Source: Sipunculus nudus
Lineage: Eukaryota > Annelida > Sipuncula > Golfingiida > Sipunculidae
DNA: 64,000 bases
Assembly (NCBI GenBank): GCA_026874595.1
Contig: CM049313.1
Coordinates: 35,801,159-35,865,158, forward strand
Direction of reading: 5' to 3'
The notes under the pieces are model-generated. The model worked only from the letters and a program-made list of their open reading frames with translations. It was not told where the DNA came from and made no database searches. Position 1 is the first letter of the stretch. Every line of letters starts with the position of its first letter. Positions 746 to 49,010 of the stretch are shown here, piece by piece. Made by a program: the position numbers and the translations under genes.

Positions 746-3700
746 ATTTTCAACTGGTGAATTTTAAATTTAATACGTGACCCTATAAATCAACACTCTC
801 AGTCTTTGTCTTGAGAATGTTTTCCTATTGTCACGTTGTTGGGCATTTCTACTGCATGTATAACTGCTGGTACTTCTTTGCCTACTCAATAAAAACAAGT
901 AGTGCCGCTGATAAAATATCAATTTAATTAATGAACCATTACATTTCAAATAAGCTAAAAATGTCCACTTTTGTGACTGTAAGCTTACTGAAAATACCAG
1001 TCTGACAAACCACAGTGTGAACGACCATTATTGGTTAATTTGTGGCCGGACTATATTTGTTAATATCGTCTGCGTGCTGCTACAAGTGCCAACATCGACC
1101 GCACACATCCGCCAGGCACCGCACATGCCACACGCTGCACGTGCGCGTGTCATGTGCTTGTCGCGGGAAGCGTCAAGTGTGGTTTGTGCCGCAAGTTCAT
1201 TTGTCACAGTCAATAAACAAAACCGCACATGCAACCACGCAGGTTTTTTTTTATTTGATATTTGCGGTAATCGAAGATGTAACGGTACCGCATTCACTTG
1301 AAAACCAGATTGAGCGAAAGGGATTTATTTTAAAAAAGTGGCCACTTGTTTCACCGATAATTATGGAATGCTTTTATTTCTGTTACTTATTAGAAAATGG
1401 CTAAACAGTATAAACGCAGGGGAACCTCAGCAATAGAGAACGAATTTTTGATTTTACACAAAACAGCTTTCTTGACACCACTCTATGTAGTAACGGTGTC
1501 TTTAAAGTGAGGATGTATTTTATCATATCTATAGGACACAAACTTCCAGTTCAATTCTGCGGCAAAGTGTTCTTGACCCCGTTACTTTGAACAGAAACGT
1601 GCCCCAAAAATATATGACTTTCTTTATGTTAAATTGATTGTTTCACTCAAATAATGTGCATGGTATAGTGACGGTTTCCGCTAAACATGCCGGAGCATGA
1701 CGCACTGTAATGGGATTTATAGACATATGCGAAGTTCTTACAGAATATAACATGAAAAAGAGTATATAAACCAATCTTAAGTTCTGCATTTTGAGCTAAA
1801 TTTGATGAAACATTCAAGCAAAAAGCATGTGTAAACTAAAGTAAATATATATGATAATCTGAAATTTCTGTTAATCAGGAGATTTAATTGTACTCCGACT
1901 TGGACTCGGGTTAACTCCAGATGACTCTGACTCGAAGAAGGTGGACTTGCACTGGAACCTCAAGGACTTGGACTTGAGTGGCATGAACTCAGACTGGGAT
2001 AGTGTGGACCCGACTGTACATCACTGGTCTGTAGGTTATGTTATCAGTCAGTCTGTCTGTATGTTTGACCCGACCAGTTATTCATTTTATGTTGATCATT
2101 AAAGCACATTTTCTACTTTAAAATAGTTTTCTACAATATCTCTGTCCACCTCCAAAAAAACAGCATCAAACTGTCCTTGACTCTTCACTCACCAGATGTC
2201 AGCATCACGAGGGTCTGCAGTCTCTATATCTTGTTCCATATTAATATCGTGATATTTAAAGAATTCTTAAAATCATATTCGGCCTTTGTGTATATATAGG
2301 CCTTAGCTTGAAATTATATTATGTCCACGAAAGAAACGGAGCGTTGCTTTCAAAAATTTATTTAAAAAATGTTTGCGGTGCTTATCACACAAAAGTTTTT
2401 CTTACTCTAAAAGAATACTTCGAAACAAAAATAAAAAGATGTCCCACTTAAGCTATACAAGCCAAAAAGTTGGAATAAATTTGAAGGTATAGTATCCAGA
2501 CGTGAAAGTAACCAGACGTCTCTAACAATATGCACAATGCTACATTTCATTCTAATTTGCAACTTTGTGTCATTGTATCAAGTTTTCTCTGAGATGATTC
2601 GTGTCTGAATTGGGAGCCAGTTCCATCCAGGTGTCAAGCGCTACAAAGCAAGTTTCTCGGCAGCGACACTTGTCATGAAAAGCATTGTAAATATGGTGAC
2701 CACTAACCTTATTCCAGATAGCCCTATCACTTTCAAGTTTAAAATGTTCTAATCTTGAATAATTTCAATACTTTCTGCTAATTGCTTTCGATTATTTCGT
2801 CACGAGCACCTGTTATTGACGCAGACATCATTTGAACCGCATGAATCCAACCCGAATTTAATCAATTACTAGTTGCCTTTCTTCACACCAAGAACAATAG
2901 GCTTCCTTTGGACAGACCACAAAGCACGTCGAAACAAGACTATACCTATTATCAAAAAGATGAGAGACAGATTTAATGAAATGGCCTGTTAAAACTCAGG
3001 ATTCTGTATCGTGATAGGACTTCATCATATTACCCATTCACTGCGGTCCTGGCATTATTAAGCCCGTGACTACATTCACACCTCTCAACAGCAGGTGTTA
3101 AGGATGATTTTGTCATTCACAAAATACAAACACTTCTTTTAATTCCTTAATCAAGCTTTAAGGAGACACAGCATACTATGTCACCATGGCGGTCTTTGAC
3201 TTTCTAAAACGCCGTGCAGTGCCATGTTTTTCGAGGTGTTTTACGTAACGTTTTTCTTGTATATAGCTATCAATGACAGCCTTTAGCAGTAGCATTTCTG
3301 TATTGATGGAGCTCCACCTTATCTTTGCGGGTTCTTTACTTAGGCGGAGGGTTACAGACAAAGGGGAAAAAATCGGTGTTCTATAGCGATTGTGTGATAC
3401 CCAAGTCAGTTAACACTGAGTGCTCATGACACCAAGCCTTGTGAGAGTACAAGTGTTTGTACATCGTAATAGCTCTTTAGCCTCGCGGCTGGAGCCCACT
3501 TTTTTACCGACGACCAATGATGTCGTCCAAATGATATGTAAACATACGGTGTGTTGGTTCACGTTAGTTCGCGCACTCTCTACAATTGCCACTGCATCAA
3601 TACATGCAGAAATAACACACACAGGTCGAACATGGCTCGAGTTTTTTTCACCGCTGCCGCTTCGTGATTTTATTCAACATTCGATTATCCAAGTTCAAAC

Positions 3701-4009
3701 AGAGCGCCCTTGCTCACACGAGGTCTTCCCAGGGTTGGTCGGGGTTAAAACCGAACGCTCATTGATTCTAACCTGTACAAACTTCAGTAGTCAAATACAG
3801 GTTTTCACGCTGACATTAACATTGACTAGTAGATCAACACTGACCTAAAACTGTTGTCGTGTCGACGCACCCAGTCTGGGGGGTTATTGGATTTTCACTT
3901 CCGTCCGATTTGCGTCGCCCTACCTGAAAATCGGTGAAATATTCATGTCTACCTGAAGTGTATTGTTTTGATACCTCAGACCATCTGACCTTGTCATGTC
4001 TATCTGTTT
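746..4009. other. Unique AT-rich stretch without a recognisable gene
   Basis: I see no element ends, tandem arrays or coding homology apart from the 42-bp dispersed repeat at 1645. Segments 1017-1404 and 3410-3848 are a little richer in GC and carry overlapping open frames on both strands (up to 142 codons), which is what low stop density gives. None shows a domain I know. Confidence 0.45.
1645..1686 (+). repeat. 42-bp dispersed repeat, copy 1
   Basis: This segment matches the reverse complement of 5058-5099 at 39 of 42 positions by eye. The shared core includes AATAATGTGCATG and ATAGTGACGGT. The similarity fades on both sides, so it is either a fragment of a larger decayed element or a short conserved end. 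Family unknown. Confidence 0.7.
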
Positions 4010-4168
4010 CCCGACCTGTCTGTCTCCCTCTCTTTGATTATGTCTATCAAACTGCCTTTCTGCATATCAGTCTTTTTCTCTGTGTCTGTGCGTCTCTTTA
4101 TCTCTCCTGGAAGAAATATTTTTTTTCTCTACTTGTGTCGCTCTTCTTTTCTCTTCTTCTTGACCCAT

Positions 4169-4219
<51 letters not shown>

Positions 4220-4271
4220 AACCCTCCGCTCTCTCTGGTGTCTCTGTTTCTCTTTGTTTCTCATAACCCCC

Positions 4272-4331
<60 letters not shown>

Positions 4332-4412
4332 CGTATGTCTGTCTCTGTCTGTCTGTCGCTCTGTTTTTTTGTCTCTCTCCCCCCTCTCTCTCTGTCTGTC
4401 TCTCTCTCGTAC
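4010..4412 (+). repeat. CT-rich pyrimidine tract with two pure (CT)n runs
   Basis: The top strand is almost wholly pyrimidine over about 400 bp, with pure (CT)n runs at about 4172-4216 and 4274-4328 and TGTC-type interruptions around them. Ser-Leu and Arg-Glu repeat frames here (positions 3934-4441) are not genes. Such homopurine-homopyrimidine DNA can form triplex structures. Confidence 0.95.
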
Positions 4413-4825
4413 TACATAGAACCTTAATGTCTTCAAGTTAAAGTATACTCTATTTTCGACAGACTAGTATAATTTCTTCAGAGAACTAGGTGAGTTCAGT
4501 TTAGATAATATATATGGTGCTAAAGGATAAACAGGCTTTCATCTGTTATTGCAATACAAGGAGAAGAAAATATAAACAATTTTCATCAATATTTACATAA
4601 TGTCCCCTAATGTAAGCTTTTGATGATGAAGGATGCTGGGTATCCCAGGCAACGAAATGGAGTTGGTCCCGGACACTTTATTCACATTTGACAGGTACTG
4701 GGAGTTATCATGATATTACAGAATTGTCTCGGTACAAACTGCCCTACATGCGTGCATGCATGGCACAAATCAAACAAAGATATAATAACATTAATTAAGA
4801 AAATATATTACCATTTAATGTAATG

Positions 4826-4827
<2 letters not shown>

Positions 4828-4886
<59 letters not shown>
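4828..4886. repeat. Compound microsatellite (CT)n-(TA)n
   Basis: About 18 CT units switch cleanly into about 11 TA units, then a TG-rich tail. Confidence 0.95.
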
Positions 4887-5057
4887 GTTTGTGTGTTTGT
4901 GTTTTCGTCAAGAAATATTATATTTTTTATCCGATCCTCTATGAATTGCCTTACATTAAGCATTTGTATCTTAAGGTTCTTTGAGTAAACCCTGTGTGTA
5001 TAACCCTGTAATATTAATAATACCTGTATGTGAATAAACCCAGTACTCCGGAAGTTA

Positions 5058-5099
5058 GTTTAACGGAGACCGTCACTATATCATGCACATTATTTGAGT
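5058..5099 (-). repeat. 42-bp dispersed repeat, copy 2 (inverted)
   Basis: Inverted partner of 1645-1686 with three mismatches in 42 bp. The two copies lie 3.4 kb apart in opposite orientation. Confidence 0.7.
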
Positions 5100-5438
5100 T
5101 ATAAACAAAACCTTGTGTAAGTGGCCACATTTGAGCGTTTTATCCTCCCCAGGAAAGCGTATACTAAAATCTCAGATATTACACGACATAATTGTGAAGT
5201 GACATATTGAATGCCCATCCAAAACGTAGTTTTGTGTATATTTCAGAAGAATCGAGATGCTAACAAAAACTTCTGAAAATCACTTTTGTCCGTGCAAATC
5301 TATATAGTGACCTTGAAATGACCTTAAGGGAGATAGGGATAATGTCCATCAAACGTTTTTAGAAAGTTTATGCCCGAAAAGTAAAAAATCCACATAGTAT
5401 ATATATATATATATAAAAAAACATCCAATGCCTGCAGG

Positions 5439-18565: not shown

Positions 18566-20040
18566 TTATCTGAGACGGGAGGAGGTGTTCTCTCTCTCTC
18601 CATGTTTTCAAATACAAGCACCTGTGATTTACAGTCTTGTACGTCTTATTTATTCCTAATGTTGCGTCCCGCAGATTTATTTGGCGTATACAGTACCTAA
18701 CCATTATGGTATAAATGTCTGTCGCCAGACCGGCTTTATCGGTGGGAATCTCTTCAGAAAAGATGGCGGTTGATATTATCATGGTTTACGCGTTGATTTA
18801 TCCCAGTGTTAACACCAGCGGTAATCCCTTTCAATGACGCGGGGACAGCCGGGAGCTACGGGCGTCACTTCCGGTATCCATCATGCCCCTGATTAGTACG
18901 CAAGGTGACACAAAACCGAGTAAATTACTATCAAGTCCCGCGCCACTCAGAAAACCCGCATTTATATTCATTGAAACAACTGGATTTTTTTCCTACTGGT
19001 CGCATCACTTTTTGTCTCCGCGAGCGTAAACACCAAACTCTTTCCTTAATATATGTCTTACCGGAAAATGCTTTCCACTGTTTTAGCCTGAGGTAGGAAC
19101 CTGTCTGTTCTGTTGAAGAAACACATTTGGCGTGACGTGTATAGTCAATGCTTTATTTAAAAATATATCTTGGAGTAGGACATATAGCCTCGTAGTAAAG
19201 AAACTGGCCATTGAGAGCAGAAGCTATGGGTTCTTTCCAAAATAGAAAGGCAAATGGGCCAAGACAAATTGGATAAAGGCAAATGAACCCAGGCAAATAT
19301 GGTGATTATTCCCGGAGCCCAATAGTCTTCACTTGAGATCAGCTCTCATGTATTAATCACTGCATAGCGGCTGTAATTTTTTTTGTAATAATACCGTCAT
19401 GTTAAGAACCTCGAGTTCAAAGCGCGTAATGAAATGACATGTCTTTCTTGTCACCTGGATATCTTCATTCTTATTTATAAGACAGTGCCACCTACACGTC
19501 ATGCGTCTGACATTAGGAAAATATCATACGTTCTTAATTTACCCAAACAGGTATGGCGGTTCCGCTATGCATGGAAGTGAATGCAACAGAAATCGTCTTA
19601 AACTTATAGATATATATATATTTGTATAAAACCATTCTGAATTTCAGGCTCTTGGTATGTGGGGAGGGGGTAATCCTATCATGTTACTGAGACATCACGT
19701 GTATCCTTGGTCTTTGTAGATTTCTGCCTTCGAGTTAGCCCTTGAATAGAGTTTATGGTGCTTGGGAACATAGAAGGATCATCGTCTCATTTTCTCGTTA
19801 TTTACGTCATGGATTTTCACCCACTGCCATGACCATCTTGAAGCGAATACTGTTTGGAACAAAATACTGCTGCATGGGCACCAGTTTATGTTATGGATTA
19901 TTGTACATATTATATATTATATATAAATGTGAATGATTATATATATACATGCATGTGTGTGTGAATCAGAGAGAGCTCTACAACAGTAAGAGAGGCAACT
20001 ATGTATAAGTCTCGGCTTTTCAAACCACGCCGTTAGCTTC
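18566..20040. other. Unique stretch, nothing recognised
   Basis: No repeat arrays or coding signal beyond chance-length open frames. The 70 bp just upstream of the hammerhead element (about 19970-20040) does not match the sequence upstream of the second hammerhead copy. Confidence 0.4.
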
Positions 20041-20123
20041 ATTCTAACCACATTCACCTGATGATCGGGTCGCATCCCGTGAAACAGACTGTTGTGAATT
20101 AACAGTGTTGTTTTTCTTCAGAG

Positions 20124-20127
<4 letters not shown>
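20041..20127 (+). mobile_element. 87-bp hammerhead-bearing dispersed element, copy 1
   Basis: This 87-bp segment recurs at 40360-40446 with the same length and two substitutions. Similarity starts at ATTCTAACCACATTCAC and stops at CTTCAGAGTTAT, immediately before a (TA)n tract in both places, while the left flanks are unrelated. That is the behaviour of a mobile unit or of an element end. It holds a type I hammerhead ribozyme (20052-20099). Short-stem hammerheads of this kind are established in Penelope-like elements and in small non-autonomous retrozymes; assignment here is inference. Confidence 0.75.
20052..20099 (+). ncRNA. Type I hammerhead self-cleaving ribozyme
   Basis: Stem I: ATTCAC (20052-20057) pairs perfectly with GTGAAT (20094-20099). 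Core strand one: CTGATGA (20058-20064). Stem II: CGGG (20066-20069) with CCCG (20076-20079) around loop TCGCAT. Core strand two: GAAA (20081-20084), its last A being position 15.1. Stem III is tiny: C20085-G20091 and A20086-T20090 with a GAC loop, next to the 15.1-16.1 A-U pair. The cleavage triplet is GUU (20091-20093), so the predicted cut lies after U20093. All invariant core bases are present. One weakness is a U-U opposition at the base of stem II (20065/20080), where G-C is usual. Open ends at stem I and a minimal stem III define type I; such forms often cleave best as dimers. Confidence 0.8.
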
Positions 20128-20175
<48 letters not shown>

Positions 20176-20195
20176 GTTTATATATATATATATAA
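20122..20195. repeat. (TA)n microsatellite 3' of hammerhead copy 1
   Basis: About 20 TA units, then TATGTATATATATGTTTATATATATA. It begins inside the last bases of the 87-bp element, so it may be the element's tail. Confidence 0.95.
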
Positions 20196-23063: not shown

Positions 23064-23744
23064 TCGTTCCAGATATGTCCCCAAGTGCTGACATCAGGGC
23101 ATCACCTAGGTTACTACGGGATACATCGCCTTGACAACAGGGCACCGCAGAGGACACACCGGGACACATTGCGTTGATATCAGGGCAACACCGAAGACAC
23201 ACGAGGACACATTGAGTTGACACCAGGGCACCGCCGAGGACACACCGGGGCACATTGCGATGATATCGAGCACCACCGAGGAAACACCAGGAAATATAGC
23301 GTTGACATCAGGGCACCGCCTAGGATACACCGGGATACATTGCCTGGATATCAGGGCACCTCCGAGGATACACCAGGATACATTGTGTAGACGTCAGGGC
23401 ACCGCCGAGGATACACCGGGACACATTGCGTTGACACCAGTACACCGCCGAGGACACATCGGGACACATTGCGTTGACATCAGGGCAACACCGAGGACAC
23501 ACCGGGACACATTGCTATGATATCGAGGACCACCGAGGAAACACCGGGAAATATAGCGTGGACATCAGGGCACCGCCTAGGATACACCGGGATACATTGC
23601 TTGCATGGACATCAGGGCATCACCGAGAATATACCGGGATACATTGCGTGGACGTCAGGGCACCGCCGAGGATACACCGGGGCACACTGCGTTGACATCA
23701 GGGCACCACCGAGGACACACCGGGACACATTGCGTTGACACCAG
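23064..23744 (+). repeat. 43-bp GC-rich minisatellite, block 1
   Basis: Tandem 43-bp units built on GACATCAGGGCACCGCCGAG, GACACACCGGGACACATTGC and GTT. A distinctive variant with ATGATATCGAG and GAAACACC recurs at 23265 and 23516, six units apart, showing higher-order organisation. Because 43 is not a multiple of three and stops are rare, spurious repeat-protein frames run through all phases on both strands. Confidence 0.95.
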
Positions 23745-24012
23745 GGCCCAGTTTCATTAAACCGATTTAAGCCTGTTATTCTACGTTTTTGACTTAAGTC
23801 ACTTTTGTCGAGCTTTAAGTCAGTTTCATTAAAAATCACGTTGATGACTTAAGTCACCTGGCGGGCTGAAATGCTAAGCCTTCACCGAGGAGGCTTAACT
23901 CTGTTTTATGGGTGTATAGCACATTATATCACTTGCACTCGTTGCATGTGACCACACGGCCATCTGTCGAGCGTGGTACGGTACGTCACAGGCGCCAATG
24001 ACGTCATTATTT
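23745..24012 (+). mobile_element. Truncated 5' part of MITE (duplicated copy)
   Basis: Begins GGCCCAGTTTCATTAAACC like the full copy at 24646, and follows it closely to the TGACGTCATTATTT at 24012. It then switches abruptly to CGTTCCAGATATGTCCC, the start of the next array block. The break is the junction of a ~0.9 kb tandem duplication, not a separate insertion. Confidence 0.85.
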
Positions 24013-24645
24013 CGTTCCAGATATGTCCCAAAGTGCTGACATCAGGGCACCACCTAGGTAACTACGGGAAACATTGCCTTGACAACAGGGCACCGCCGAG
24101 GACACACCGAGACACATTGCGTTGATATCAGGGCAACACCGAAGACACACGAGGACACATTGCGATGATATCGAGCACCACCGAGGAAACACCAGGATAT
24201 ATAGCGTGGACATCAGGACACCGCCTAGGATACACCGGGATACATTGCCTGGACATCAGGGCATCACCGAGGATACACCGGGATACATTGCGTGGACGTC
24301 AGGGCACCGCCGAGGATACACCGGGACACATTGCGTTGACACCAGGACACCGCCGAGGACACATCGGGACACATTGCGTTGACATCAGGGCAACACCGAA
24401 GACACACCGGGACACATTGCTATGATATCGAGGACCACCGAGGAAACACCGGGAAATATAGCGTGGACATCAGGGCACCGCCTAGGATACACCGGGATAC
24501 ATTGCCTGGACATCAGGGAATCACCGAGAATACACCGGGATACATTGCTTGGACGTCAGGGCACCGCCGAAGATACACCCGGACACACTGCTTTGACATC
24601 AGGGCACCACCGAGGACACACCGGGACACATTGCGTTGACACCAG
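24013..24645 (+). repeat. 43-bp GC-rich minisatellite, block 2
   Basis: Near copy of block 1, beginning with the same CGTTCCAGATATGTCCC leader and carrying the ATGATATCGAG variant at 24163 and 24420, again six units apart. It is about one unit shorter than block 1. Confidence 0.95.
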
Positions 24646-25080
24646 GGCCCAGTTTCATTAAACCGATTTAAGCCTGTTATTCTGCGTTTTTGACTTAAGT
24701 CACTTTTGTCGAGCTTTAAGTCAGTTTCATTAAAAATAACGTTGATGACTTAAGTCACCTGGCGGGCTAAAATGCTAAGCCTGCACCGAGGAGGCTTAAC
24801 TCTGTGTTTTATGGGTGTATATAGCACATTATATCACTTGCACTCGTTGCATGTGACCACACGGCCATCTGTCGAGCGTGGTACGGTACGTCACAGGCGA
24901 CAATGACGTCATTATTTCATCAATAGGTGGCATTGAAAAGGGGATTTCCAAGGTTCAGATCGACTTAGCTTAATCGCGTTTAGTGAAACTGACTTATCTC
25001 ACTGGCTTACGTTAGCCGAATTGGGAGGTGTTTCGGTAAAATTTGACTTAAGCCATACGCATTCTTAGTGAAACTGGGCC
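24646..25080 (+). mobile_element. 435-bp MITE with terminal inverted repeats
   Basis: The left end GGCCCAGTTTCATTAA and right end TTAGTGAAACTGGGCC are inverted repeats with one mismatch in 16. CTTAAG-type words (GACTTAAGTCAC, TTTAAGTCAG, GACTTAAGCC) recur inside as sub-terminal repeats in both orientations. No open frame, so non-autonomous. It interrupts the 43-bp array. A target-site duplication is not clear; hAT-like or related DNA transposon origin is only a guess. Confidence 0.75.
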
Positions 25081-25340
25081 ATGGACATCGCCGAGGACAC
25101 ACCGGGACATATTGCGTAGACATCAGAGCACCACCGAGGACACACCGGGACACATTGCGTTGACACCAGGACACCGCCGAGGACACACCGGGACACATTG
25201 CTTGGACATCAGGGCACCACCGGGGACACACCGGGACACATTGCGTAGACATCAGGACACCACCGAGGACACACCGGGACACATTGCGTGGACACCAGGA
25301 CACCACCGAGGACACAACGGGATACATTTGGGCGAAGACG
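25081..25340 (+). repeat. 43-bp GC-rich minisatellite, block 3
   Basis: About six of the most homogeneous units, following the right end of the MITE. The unit interrupted by the MITE lacks part of its AGGGCAC segment at this side. Confidence 0.95.
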
Positions 25341-26526: not shown

Positions 26527-27400
26527 CTAGGTATCATGCTGTGTTTTGGTAGACCCCCTTTGCACTGTCCTCGTAATCATGTTGTGTTTTAGTTGACCTT
26601 CTCTTCGCTCTTCTAGGTTGTTCCTCTCTTTACTGTACTCGGTATCATGCTGTGTTATGGTTGGACCTCTCTGCACATGTTCGGTATCATGCATCGTTTC
26701 GGTTGTTCCTCTCTTTGCTGTACTCGGTATCGTGCTGTGTTTTGGCTGACCCTCTCTTCGCTGTACTCGGTATCATGTTGTGTTTTGGTTGGACCTCTCT
26801 TCGCTGTACTCGGTATCATGTTGTGTTTTGGTTGACCTCTCTTCGCTGTACTCGGTATCATGTTGTGTTTTGGTTGGACCTCTCTTTACTGTACTCGGTA
26901 TCATGTTGTTTTGTTAGGCCTTCTCTTCACCGTACATGGTATCATGCTGTGTTTTGGTTGGCTCTCTCCACACTATGCTCAGTATCATGCTGTGTTTTAG
27001 TTGTTCCTCTCCTCATTGTACTCGGTATCATGCTGTTTGGTTGGGCCATCTCTTCGCTGTACACGGTATCATGCTTTGTTTCACAGTGTTTTCACATCAG
27101 TGTCGTGGAAACGGGTGAATCATGTCTTTTGTTTTGGAAGGCTCTCTTTTATTTGAACTCGGTATCACGTTGTGTTTTTGAAGGTCCTCTCTTTTTTGTA
27201 CTCGGTATCACTTTGTATTTTGGAGGGCTCTCTCTTATTTGTCCTTGGTATCACGTTGTGTTTTGGATGGTCCGCTCTTGTGTACTAGGTATGACGTTGT
27301 GTTTTGGAAGGTCCTCTCTTATTTGTACTTGTTTTTAAGTTGTCCATCTCCTATTTGTTCTCGGTATCATTTTGTGTTTTGGAGGGCCCTCTCTTCTTAG
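26527..27400 (+). repeat. 43-bp minisatellite of unrelated sequence
   Basis: About 20 units based on CTCGGTATCATGTTGTGTTT, TGGTTGGACCTCTC and TTCGCTGTA. Units 26765-26895 are the most alike; both edges decay. The unit length equals that of the GC-rich array 1.2 kb upstream, but the sequences are not related. The 228-codon frame at 26652-27338, the longest in the window, is a phase-cycling read of this repeat. Confidence 0.93.
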
Positions 27401-40359: not shown

Positions 40360-40446
40360 ATTCTAACCACATTCACCTGATGATCGGGTCGCATCCCGTG
40401 AAACAGACTTTTGTGAATTTACAGTGTTGTTTTTCTTCAGAGTTAT
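40360..40446 (+). mobile_element. 87-bp hammerhead-bearing dispersed element, copy 2
   Basis: Differs from 20041-20127 at two bases only: G-to-T at 40410 and A-to-T at 40420 (relative to copy 1). The left flank is unrelated to that of copy 1; the right flank is again (TA)n. Confidence 0.75.
40371..40418 (+). ncRNA. Hammerhead ribozyme, probably impaired
   Basis: Same stem I (ATTCAC 40371-40376 with GTGAAT 40413-40418), CTGATGA (40377-40383), stem II (CGGG 40385-40388 with CCCG 40395-40398) and GAAA (40400-40403). The base that should pair with C40404 in stem III is T40410 instead of G, so the first pair of stem III is lost and the triplet is UUU opposite C. The family's pairing rule at this position predicts weak or no self-cleavage. 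Confidence 0.65.
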
Positions 40447-44382: not shown

Positions 44383-45249
44383 TATAGATAACACAATATG
44401 CATTACATACATTTCTCTGCATTTAATTCAGAATTATGAATATACCAGGAATTGGCTTCCATCGATTTTTTTAATGATTACTACTAAAGTCCATGTTTCT
44501 GTTCAAAAACATCTTTCATACAGCGAAATACGCACTCAGACTTTATAATTTCTGATTAACGGCTTCCAGGACGTCTGTTTTTTACAATAGTTACCGGCTC
44601 TGAAGGAAGTCGTTCTGATGGTATCAAGCTTCCATAGTCTTCGTGAGTGGTTTTATCTGTGATTACCAATCTTGTCACTGGCCCAGTCAATATGGCGTGA
44701 ACCCTCAATATCAAAGCTATAGTGGTACATATAATACATGATATATTAACCCCATACTGCCGGGCGTGTTTTTTCCCCGTTTCTTACCCTCTTTGGTAAA
44801 AAAGGTCAAATAAAGCTATATGAGCTTCTTATTGTAAACGGGACTTCAGACACATCTAAAAGAGCGCATCCCTCAGCCATGCAAAAAAGAGACAGAGTAT
44901 CGGAAAACAGAAAAGATTGATTCTGCATCCGTGACCCAAATGAAAGTTATAAATTATTATCATGAACCACATAAAACAGGCTGATCACATAAACTTTTTT
45001 GGAGATTAGATAACAAATTACAAACAGTAAAACATACAGACAGATCTAGACACTAGAAAATTGTTGAATTATTTGTAACTATTGGTAAATATACCTTTTG
45101 AGCTGGAGCCTTGTAGCTGATGAATTGAGAAAATGCCTGAAACGGTCCTTCGCGGTTACTTAGCGAAAGATCTACCACTCTAAAGTGCGGTTTTCACGGG
45201 CACACGACCGATTTGCGAAGGATGCCAATGACGAAATATGGCAAAATCC
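44383..45249. other. Unique stretch, nothing recognised
   Basis: No repeats. The words CTGATGA and GAAAC occur near 45118-45150, but the intervening sequence cannot form the stem of a hammerhead. Confidence 0.45.
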
Positions 45250-48200
45250 AACCAAAGTCACGGAATTGACTAGCATTAGATCGGTCAGTCCATCCAGTCA
45301 CGGGCAGTGACTGGCATTAGATCGACCACTCAAACCAGTCACGGACAATGACCAGCATTAGATCGACCACTCTCACCAGTCACTGATAATGACTAGCTGT
45401 AGATGGACCACTCCCACCAGTCACGGACAATGACTAGCTGTTGAACTGAAACTCAAACAAGTCGCGGACAAAAACTAGCCCCAGATCCAACCAGTAACGA
45501 ATTATAACTAGCTGTAGACCTAACACTCAAACCAGTCAAGGACAGTGCTTAGCTGTTGAGCTCACACTCCAACCTGTTACGGACATTAGCATTGGATCCA
45601 CTACTCCAACCAATCACGAAAAATGACTAGCATTAGATCGACCACTCTCACCATTCACGGACAATGACTAGCTGTAATCCTAACACACAAACCAGTCAGG
45701 GACAGTGACTAGCTGTTGACCTAATCCCAACCAGTCACGGACAATAACCATGATTAGATCGACCACTCAAACCAGTCACGGACAATGACTAGCATTAGAT
45801 CAACCATCTCAACCAGTCACGGATAATGACTTACTGTTGACTTAACACCCCAACCAGTCACGGACAATGACCAGCATTAGATCGACCACTCTCACCAGTC
45901 ACTGATAATGACTAGCTGTAGACCTAACAGTCCATCCAGTCACGGACAAAGACTAGCTGTTGAACTGACACTCCAACAAGTCGCGGAAAAGAACTAGCCC
46001 TAGATCCAACCAGTAACGAACAATAACTAGCTGTAGATCTAACACTCCAACCAGTCAAGGAATGTGCTTAGCTGTTGAGCTCACACTCCAACCTGTCACG
46101 GACATTAGCATCGGATCCAATACTCCAACCAAACACGGAAAATGACTAGCATTAGATCGACCACTCTCACCATTCACGGACAATGACTAGCTGTAATCCT
46201 AACACACAAACCAGTCACGGACAGTGACTAGCTGTTGACCTAATCCCAACCAGTCACGGACAATGACCATGATTAGGTCGACCACTCCAACCGGTCACGG
46301 ATAATGACAAGCATTAGATCGACCACCCTAACCAGTCACGGACAATGACTAGCATTAGATTGACCAGTCCAACTAGTCACGGACATTGACTAGCATTAGA
46401 TCGATCACTCCGATCAGTCATGGACAAGGACTAGTTGAGAACCTAACACTCCAACTAATCACGGACATTGACTGGCGGTAGACCTAAGACTCCAACCAGT
46501 CACGGAGAGTGACTAGAATTAGATCGACCACCCCTACCAGTCACGGATAATTACTAGCATTAGATCGACCACCCTAACCAGTCACGGACAATGACTAGCA
46601 TTAGATCGACCACTCCAACTAGTCACGGACAATGACTAGCATAAGATCGATCACTCCGATCAGTCATGGACAAGGACTAGTTGAGAACCTAACACTCCAA
46701 CTAATCACGGACATTGACTGGCGGTAGACCTAAGACTCCAACCAGTCACGGAGAGTGACTAGAATTAGATCGACCACCCCAACCATTCACGGACAATGAC
46801 TAGCTGTTGACCAAAATTCCAACCAGTCATAGACAGTAACAAGCATTAGATAGATCACTCCGACCAGTATTTGACAACAACTAGCTGTAAACCTATCACA
46901 CAAACCAGTCACGGACAATGACTAGCATTAGATCGACCACTCCGACCAGTCACGGACAATGACTAGCATTAGATCGACCACTCCGACCAGTCACGGACAA
47001 TGACTAGCATTAGGTCTACCACTCTCACCAGTCACGGACAATGACTAGCTGTTGAACTGACACTCCAACAAGTCGCGGAAAAGAACTAGCCCTAGATCCA
47101 ACCAGTAACGAACAATAACTAGCTGTAGATCTAACACTCCAACCAGTCAAGGACAGTGCTTAGCTGTTGAGCTCACACTCCAACCTGTCACGGACATTAG
47201 CATTGGATCCACTACTCCAACCAATCACGGAAAATGACTAGCATTAGATCGACCACTCTCACCATTCACGGACAATGACTAGCTGTAATCCTAACACACA
47301 AACCAGTCACGGACAGTGACTAGCTGTTGACCTAATCCCAACCAGTCACGGACAATGACCATGATTAGGTCGACCACTCCAACCGGTCACGGATAATGAC
47401 AAGCATTAGATCGACCACCCTTACCAGTCACGGACAATGACTAGCATTAGATTGACCAGTCCAACTAGTCACGGACATTGACTAGCATAAGATCGATCAC
47501 TCCGATCAGTCATGGACAAGGACTAGTTGAGAACCTAACACTCCAACTAATCACGGACATTGACTGGCGGTAGACCTAAGACTCCAACCAGTCACGGAGA
47601 GTGACTAGAATTAGATCAACCACCCCAACCAGTCACGGATAATTACTAGCATTAGATCGACCACCCTAACCAGTCACGGACAATGACTAGCATTAGATCG
47701 ACCACTCCAACTAGTCACGGACAATGACTAGCATAAGATCGATCACTCCGATCAGTCATGGACAAGGACTAGTTGAGAACCTAACACTCCAACTAATCAC
47801 GGACATTGACTGGCGGTAGACCTAAGACTCCAACCAGTCACGGAGAGTGACTAGAATTAGATCGACCACCCCAACCATTCACGGACAATGACTAGCTGTT
47901 GACCAAAATTCCAACCAGTCATAGACAGTAACAAGCATTAGATAGATCACTCCGACCAGTATTTGACAACAACTAGCTGTAAACCTATCACACAAACCAG
48001 TCACGGACAATGACTAGCATTAGATCGACCACTCCGACCAGTCACGGACAATGACTAGCATTAGATCGACCACTCCGACCAGTTACGGACAATGACTAGC
48101 ATTAGGTCTACCACTCTCACCAGTCACGGACAATGACTAGCTGTTGAACTGACACTCCAACAAGTCGCGGAAAAGAACTAGCCCTAGATCCAACCAGTAA

Positions 48201-49010
48201 CGAACAATAACTAGCTGTAGATCTAACACTCCAACCAGTGAAGGACAGTCCTTAACTGTTGAGCTCACACTCCAACCTGTCACGGACATAAGCATTGGAT
48301 CCACTACTCCAACCAATCACGGAAAATGACTAGCATTAGATTGACCACTCTCACCATTCACGGACAATGACTTGCTGTTGACCAAAAACTCCAACCAGTC
48401 ATAGACAGTAATAAGCATTGGTCTGACCACTACGACCAGTCTTTGACAACAACTAGCTGTAAACCTAGCATTAGATCGACCACTCCGACCAGTCACGGAC
48501 AATGACTAGCATTAGATCGACCACTCCAACTAGTCACGGAAAATGACTAGCATAAGATCGATCACTCCGATCAGTCATGGACAAGGACTAGTTTAGAACC
48601 TAACACTCCAACTAATCACGGACATCGACTGGCGGTAGACCTAAGACTCCAACCAGTCAAGAAGAGTGACTAGAATTAGATCGACCAGTCACACCAGTCA
48701 CGGATAATGACTTCTGATAGATGTAACACAAAAACACTGCAGTCATGGACACTGACTAGGGATAAACCTCGAGCCAGTCCAAGTCAGTGACTAGCGGTAG
48801 ACCTACTACTCCAAACATTCACAGAATATGACTAGCGGTAGAACTAACAGTCAAACCAGTCACTGACACGGGCAATGACCAGCGGCAGACCTTACACTGG
48901 AGCCAGTCACGAATTATAACTTCCGGTAGATCAACCACTCCAACTCCAACCAGTCACGGATAATGACCAGCGGCAGATTTACCATTCCAATCTTTCACGC
49001 GGACGTACAC
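45250..49010 (+). repeat. ~41-bp minisatellite with ~1.09 kb higher-order repeat
   Basis: About 90 units built on CCAGTCACGGACAATGACTA, GCATTAGATCGACC and ACTCCAA. Variant units occur in fixed order: the ACAAGTCGCGG marker falls at about 45976, 47068 and 48159, i.e. 1,091-1,092 bp apart, with the intervening variants (for example GTTGAGCTCACACTCC, ATGGACAAGGACTAGTTGAG) also repeated. Each standard unit has an internal inverted repeat, AGTCA and TGACT around CGGACAA. Edges are degenerate. Confidence 0.95.

Follow-up and report, generated by a model that had tools for sequence, protein, structure and literature searches.

Does the window (the whole 64,000-nucleotide stretch of Sipunculus nudus DNA analysed here) carry a hammerhead ribozyme at 20052-20099, and what kind of element brought it there? 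All the parts of a type I hammerhead layout, namely the CUGANGA and GAAA cores, an NUH triplet and stems I-III in order, are present (Table 1), and every piece named for this interval by the original prediction proved exact on direct reading. The minimal stem III can be drawn either as ACA/TGT around the loop GAC or as two pairs with the loop AGACT; it is near-palindromic, and intermolecular pairing between two copies is possible.

Table 1. Coordinates of the hammerhead motif, its host element and other features in the window
Feature	Position	Strand	Remarks
PLE-1 copy 1: 5'-truncated 3' pLTR with hammerhead motif	about 20007-20128	+	Ends at 3' site A
Initiator-like TCATTC	20039-20044	+	A 20041, where other insertions most often begin; putative +1
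Stem I 5' arm ATTCAC	20052-20057	+	Read directly from sequence
Core CTGATGA	20058-20064	+	Read directly; 6 of 7 bases invariant in the 42-row alignment
13-codon frame from the ATG within CTGATGA	20061-20102		TAA stop directly after stem I
Stem II including U-U foot	20065-20080	+	Read directly; U 20065 / U 20080
Stem II arms CGGG / CCCG; loop TCGCAT	20066-20069 / 20076-20079; 20070-20075	+	Read directly
GGTCG	20068-20072	+	+28..+32 from 20041, within stem/loop II
Core GAA	20081-20083	+	Read directly
Stem III, minimal, ACA-GAC-TGT	20084-20092	+	Arms ACA 20084-20086 / TGT 20090-20092
H17, U of GUU	20093	+	Predicted scissile bond 3' of U20093
Stem I 3' arm GTGAAT	20094-20099	+	Read directly
Motif-to-site-A stretch	20100-20128	+	Site A, putative reverse-transcription start
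(TA)n adjoining the insertion	20125-20194	.	Repeat at copy 1 target
PLE-1 copy 2: solo pLTR beginning at putative +1 A	40360-40446	+	Stem III damaged, G16.2 -> T
Diverged tandem arrays, 41-43 bp units and longer-period versions	23089-25328, 26616-27329, 45247-48712		

Chance assembly of these pieces had been judged very unlikely, and the counts agree. A descriptor of the structure (CTGANGA; at least 4 pairs in stem II, its foot pair unconstrained; GAA-A; at least 2 pairs in stem III; NUH; at least 5 pairs in stem I) matched 30 times in 270,301 bases of the window and its relatives, 29 times in the family that we call PLE-1 and once in a second family, PLE-2, and never in 40 first-order Markov copies of those 270 kb (10.8 Mb). 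For the looser pattern CTGATGA-N8..30-GAAA the window has 6 matches where 1.17 are expected, two of the six being PLE-1 copies. The covariance-model search proposed as a check failed: cmscan found no Rfam hammerhead at gathering scores, none in the whole window at E<=10 and none in 351 bases around the motif; a search of the genome with RF00163 gave 0 matches but carries no information, as 73 of 150,758 candidates were scored and the control genomes were silent too. The minimum free energy (MFE) fold differs from a hammerhead and is on a par with shuffles (52-mer z -0.64), the best hammerhead fold of the 48-mer lies 4.4 kcal/mol above the MFE, and ViennaRNA gives the hammerhead fold a probability of 1.3e-4 to 2.4e-4 in PLE-1. 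Since the canonical PLE-2 motif fares equally low (1.4e-4) and ViennaRNA ignores tertiary contacts, this is a poor and non-discriminating test of activity. The opposite strand shows no hammerhead, either in its fold or in a two-strand descriptor search. Taken by itself, without the second family, the PLE-1 motif would be doubtful as a hammerhead.

The surroundings of the motif reveal its host. A 116-bp query (window 20010-20125) against the animal's own genome (1.43 Gb, 153 contigs) returned 1163 candidates, and 40 of the 40 copies scored were 100% identical to it; the stem II core pattern occurs at 2163 places in the genome, and its reversed-pattern control at 0. Twenty 10-kb loci fetched for their exact copies (designated L and a number) have a common 3' end and variable 5' truncation, the window copy being common to other copies from about 20007 to CTTCAGAGTTATA. 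L029 is a head-to-tail array with hammerheads at 254, 3128 and 5995 (unit about 2.87 kb), in which an open frame of 703 codons (3304-5412, first Met at 3343) lies between the second and third hammerheads and is followed by about 575 bp before the next hammerhead; in L010, too, there is repetition, about every 2.1 kb. The longer copies have an ORF in which RT-like and GIY-YIG-like motifs (DFYPSI, YRDDG, IVY...YIG...R...E) can be read by eye. The PLE-1 protein gave no RT or GIY-YIG match in Pfam, NCBIfam or PDB, nor by hhalign against a GIY-YIG domain, so the domain names are based on these motifs and on architecture. Around the YIG motif the L029 frame is seven residues shorter than that of L016. 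A search for relatives in viral contigs found none.

PLE-1 has two recurrent 3' ends, site A (...CTTCAGAGTTAT) and site B (...CACTACCTTCT), the latter about 63 nt past the former in other copies and missing from the first window copy. Most 3' ends adjoin (TA)n, with exceptions that include L017, at (CT)n, and L025, and rows of L013, L021, L025 and L029 stop elsewhere or continue into the next unit. The head-to-head pairs of L010, L011, L012 and L024 each combine a partner with its end at A and a partner with its end at B, and head-to-head inverted pLTRs also occur in L033 and L054. Hallmarks of Penelope-like elements (PLEs) are present in these loci: (partial-)tandem pLTR units, inverted pLTRs with an optional tail, and AT-rich targets. 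Many copies start just 5' of the motif and end at A or B, which makes them about 90-170 bp long, the size that a short non-autonomous retrozyme or SINE with a borrowed hammerhead might have; however, in the loci fetched the same 3' ends recur in copies of every length, up to the tandem units with the 703-codon frame, and solo pLTRs are expected PLE products, so that such an origin is highly improbable. From its ends and architecture, the host of the motif is best identified as a truncated copy of a very numerous Penelope-like retrotransposon, PLE-1, and the motif, once attributed to a non-coding element, belongs to the 3' pLTR of a coding one, whose copy here is truncated at the 5' end.

The strongest argument on the nature of the motif comes from PLE-2. 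Locus L022 contains a PLE fragment that is 36% identical, over 44 residues, to the last part of the PLE-1 frame and, after it, GTGTTC-CTGACGA-GTGAGGGC..GCCCTTAC-GAA-ACAGAGCTGT-C-GAACAC, a hammerhead with the canonical foot pair, a GUC triplet and the same stem III arms as PLE-1. In a search over 201 bases RF00163 gave this motif 27.4 bits (E 5.4e-5), short of the gathering score of 34, and had no match at the gathering score on eight further PLE-2 loci. The two families share, besides the hammerhead, its GAAACAG..CTGT stem III and alternative 3' ends, and pieces of their ORFs are 39% and 41% identical (the latter for the L072 protein over a 186-column alignment), whereas PLE-2 differs in its G10.1-C11.1 pair, its 8-bp stem II, its GUC triplet and its visibility to Rfam. 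The fifth base of the core, T in PLE-1, is C in PLE-2 (42-row alignment of both families), whose core CTGACGA lacks the ATG of the window motif. PLE-2 (L022 about 4560-4660, minus strand, and L071-L089) is about 40-fold rarer than PLE-1 by exact pattern, its 54 copies, of which a single 61-bp array holds 7, comparing with 2163 for patterns that differ in length.

Across 42 distinct rows of both families, 4 of 6 stem I pairs (ATTCAC/GTGAAT in PLE-1 against GTGTTC/GAACAC in PLE-2) changed on both sides with pairing kept, as did 2 of 5 stem II pairs, the stem II letters of each family being fixed by the patterns used to gather the rows. Paired cells amount to 89.4% over all 42 rows, against 37.0-46.2% in slid controls, and the shuffle control is surpassed both for cells and for score; in 23 hand-picked rows (13 of 24 PLE-1, 10 of 18 PLE-2) they amount to 90.4%. 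Two-sided changed pairs are at least as many in 425 of 500 shuffles, as expected of what is essentially one contrast between two families. A canonical hammerhead thus stands at the matching place in PLE-2, with stems I and II re-paired, and we conclude from this correspondence that the PLE-1 motif is homologous to a canonical hammerhead and derived from one, which bears out the earlier assignment to a Penelope-type, type I hammerhead with a minimal stem III as far as descent is concerned. The covariation that had been expected among copies is present between the two families; inside PLE-1 it is missing, since 13 of the 42 sampled copies have changes in stem I (2 of them indel-shifted) and none of the 13 is double-compensated, and these changes look like the decay of dead copies. 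The same comparison largely refutes the notion that the stretch acts at the DNA level only, as a core promoter or primer-binding region resembling a hammerhead by chance. Its initiator-like TCATTC, the GGTCG at +28..+32 and the lack of an Rfam match in the window would suit such a role, but the empty Markov control, the Rfam match at the corresponding place of PLE-2 and the compensatory stems I and II speak against it and leave it very unlikely.

A separate observation concerns L070 (C1:84923800-84925000), where positions 308-952 hold a 61-bp tandem array (10.6 copies, 95% match), each unit of which contains a whole PLE-2-type hammerhead. The unit junction has 8 matches genome-wide, all at that locus, and the simplest origin of the array is local slippage. 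Transcription of the array, if it occurs, could yield self-cleaving units of 61 nt, shorter than the 170-400 nt retrozymes described in PMC7229834.

The hammerhead of PLE-1 departs from the canonical form throughout the family. Position 10.1 is U in 2143 of 2163 copies, counted irrespective of the base at 11.1, and the remaining 20 have 13 C, 6 A and 1 G; a G-C foot pair is absent, 0 of these 20 having C at 11.1, and the U-U foot is found in all 100 of the copies listed first among the 2163. The foot pair 10.1-11.1 is therefore unpaired in PLE-1, against the type I criterion of a paired foot, and the original prediction had rightly singled it out as unusual. Of 42 sampled copies (the first 49 listed places on contig C1 minus seven from stretches that were already represented), 35 have the triplet GUU, 3 have GUA and 1 has GUC, the others being different or indel-shifted, and all hammerhead parts are intact in 28. 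The pattern CTGATGAG-N10-CGAAAC, tried as a variant class with a canonical foot, gave 5 matches against 2 for its reverse and was taken as chance. Since the U-U foot and GUU are family-wide, they are not damage specific to the window copy; judged by its foot, its triplet and its silence in Rfam, the PLE-1 version appears to be a weakened hammerhead. G10.1 and C11.1 are otherwise conserved and maintained by compensatory changes (PMC2837043), although HHR_Amex2 is a natural exception that also has U-U at this place (PMC7229834).

Whether PLE-1 RNA is cut at the motif on its way to integration can be read from insertion ends. The anchor of the 5'-end survey was a pattern lying 3' of the cut site and present in 1479 copies, and 60 copies were mapped, namely the first 63 listed places minus three in L029, all of them on C1, the single contig that also supplied the 42-copy sample. 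Of their 5' ends, 28 reach further upstream, 20 start 10-20 nt upstream of CTGATGA, 9 of these exactly at the A of ATTCTAACC, and 12 lie elsewhere. At least 11 nt of native sequence lie upstream of the cut site in 57 of the 60; the uncertain crossers L099, L095 and L149 have about 7, 4 and 1 nt, and L149, a palindromic head-to-head junction within 1 nt of the cut site, is ambiguous. None of the 60 starts exactly at GTGAAT (95% upper bound about 5%). Genome-wide, 174 TA-flanked junctions fall in the interval upstream of CCACATTCACCTGA; among the first 100 listed, that A accounts for 51, the base after it for 16, and a TAACC that can anneal to (TA)n for 14. A further count gave 87 TA-flanked junctions adjoining CTGATGATCGGGTC, overlapping in part with the 174, and 10 in the ten bases preceding the cut site. 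Conservation of the anchors is uneven (of 42 copies, all with the stem II core, 21 have an intact GTGAATTAACAGTG) but cannot explain the 17-fold difference in junctions. The corresponding count for PLE-2 yielded 1 match, too few for comparison. As sites A and B are both 3' of the cut site and the copies cross it, the inserted RNAs were unbroken there. These ends indicate that integrated PLE-1 copies derive from RNA uncut at the predicted ribozyme site, and they argue against cut RNAs as the integrated templates; an intact scissile bond could also come from re-ligated or circular RNA, and unbroken inserts may be compatible with the cutting of RNAs that never integrate.

A role for an active ribozyme would be the self-cutting of tandem transcripts at each pLTR, as dimers or with the PLE protein, to give a unit-length linear or circular RNA as transposition intermediate. 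The tandem units of L029 would provide such transcripts, and stem III would allow a dimeric hammerhead (A/A -24.9, T/T -26.3 and A/T -30.3 kcal/mol, the MFEs of two monomers adding up to -22.6); minimal PLE hammerheads may act as dimers (PMC7761336), and one PLE hammerhead cleaves with its protein (PMC11167929). However, the preferred copy start is an A 53 nt upstream of the predicted cut site rather than the cut site itself, the foot is U-U and the triplet GUU, and the cofold MFE is a structure other than the dimeric hammerhead (A/A -29.5, T/T -29.5, A/T -32.9). In the system of PMC11167929, moreover, hammerhead mutants inserted normally and the cut site had no read starts or ends. We therefore consider such an intermediate improbable.

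The sharp 5' end at the putative +1 A has a possible explanation in transcription. TCATTC is an initiator-like hexamer, and GGTCG fits the DPE consensus RGWYV, although its match as a DPE, noticed post hoc, is only predicted. The expected location of a DPE at +28..+32 follows PMC4748587. One of 20 PLE-2 rows examined, copy L072, starts at the A of TC-A-GTG, and PLE-2 reads GGGGC, which does not fit a DPE. An extra G precedes the A in 17 of the 51 junctions at +1 and in 1 of the 16 at +2 (p 0.05), and in 5 of 9 sampled +1 starts against 2 of 23 elsewhere (Fisher p 0.01), some of the nine being head-to-head copies; the second window copy likewise has a non-native G directly before its putative +1 A. 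Such a G can be a cap signature, for which it would be weak support here. A tentative and rather doubtful proposal is that a single stretch of 60 nt in PLE-1 combines a pol II internal core promoter (the initiator and the DPE-like GGTCG) with the hammerhead and that the template is uncut capped RNA. With such a template, cleavage competence could decay, as the U-U foot and GUU would reflect, the rest being held by promoter constraint and by the success of the family (>2000 copies). If true, this would be a dual promoter and ribozyme in a Penelope element, caught in the loss of its ribozyme.

The reading that we hold to be probable is that the window contains a PLE-1 pLTR hammerhead, in a truncated copy at a (TA)n site, that is most likely either a relic of reduced strength or a ribozyme that acts slowly, with help from protein or dimer formation, and cuts outside the integration route. 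It draws on what the genome itself displays, namely the architecture, the copy number, two 3' ends, a sharp 5' end, the crossing of the scissile bond and the cross-family pairing. Judging from the insertion ends, transcription would start at the initiator-like A 20041, which would place the hammerhead at about nt 12-59 of the transcript, ahead of the ORF, and read-through transcripts would contain it again in the next pLTR. The RNA would be capped and the PLE-1 protein would nick AT-rich DNA, after which reverse transcription would begin at A or B, internally and downstream of the hammerhead, and run to the 5' end of the RNA, giving solo pLTRs, 5'-truncated copies and unit-length copies.

Hammerheads of PLEs are already known (PMC7761336, PMC6155905), and PLE-1 is a further PLE family with one, in weakened form. 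Its closest parallel in organization may be Poseidon PAc of Anolis carolinensis (PMC11167929), which shares tandem pLTR-ORF units with a hammerhead at the pLTR-ORF junction, AT-rich targets and two internal RT start sites, the stretch between them constituting the tail. In PAc, however, the ORF begins at stem II and the RT start lies about 111-118 bp inside it, whereas in PLE-1 the first Met of L029 comes about 180 nt past the cut site and both 3' ends precede it; the PAc hammerhead cleaves with its protein, whereas PLE-1 cleavage is just predicted. The Penelope families of Adineta vaga (PMC3846280) also have pLTRs, head-to-head inversion with an optional tail on one partner, a 5' junction formed by microhomology and initiator-like pLTR sequence; their tail is 31 bp against about 63 in PLE-1, and the word hammerhead is absent from that paper. 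HHR_Amex2 of axolotl resembles PLE-1 in its U-U stem II foot and two-pair stem III, but belongs to non-autonomous retrozymes with (weaker) loop-loop contacts and no PLE pLTR (PMC7229834). In the retrotransposon L1Tc of Trypanosoma cruzi a promoter with a downstream element overlaps a self-cleaving RNA at the 5' end, the first 77 nt (Pr77) acting as promoter and ribozyme alike (PMC4748587); that ribozyme is HDV-like, its DPE lies at +25..+28 and its functions were shown experimentally, whereas those of PLE-1 are predicted. Since many insertions preserve the ends of the RNA from which they were copied, the question of cleavage can be addressed in this genome without RNA, and the PLE-1 ends agree with the in vitro behaviour of PAc, in which cutting is dispensable for insertion (PMC11167929). 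The presence of a sister family with a canonical hammerhead in the same genome offers a matched comparison of ribozyme strength against the success of the element.
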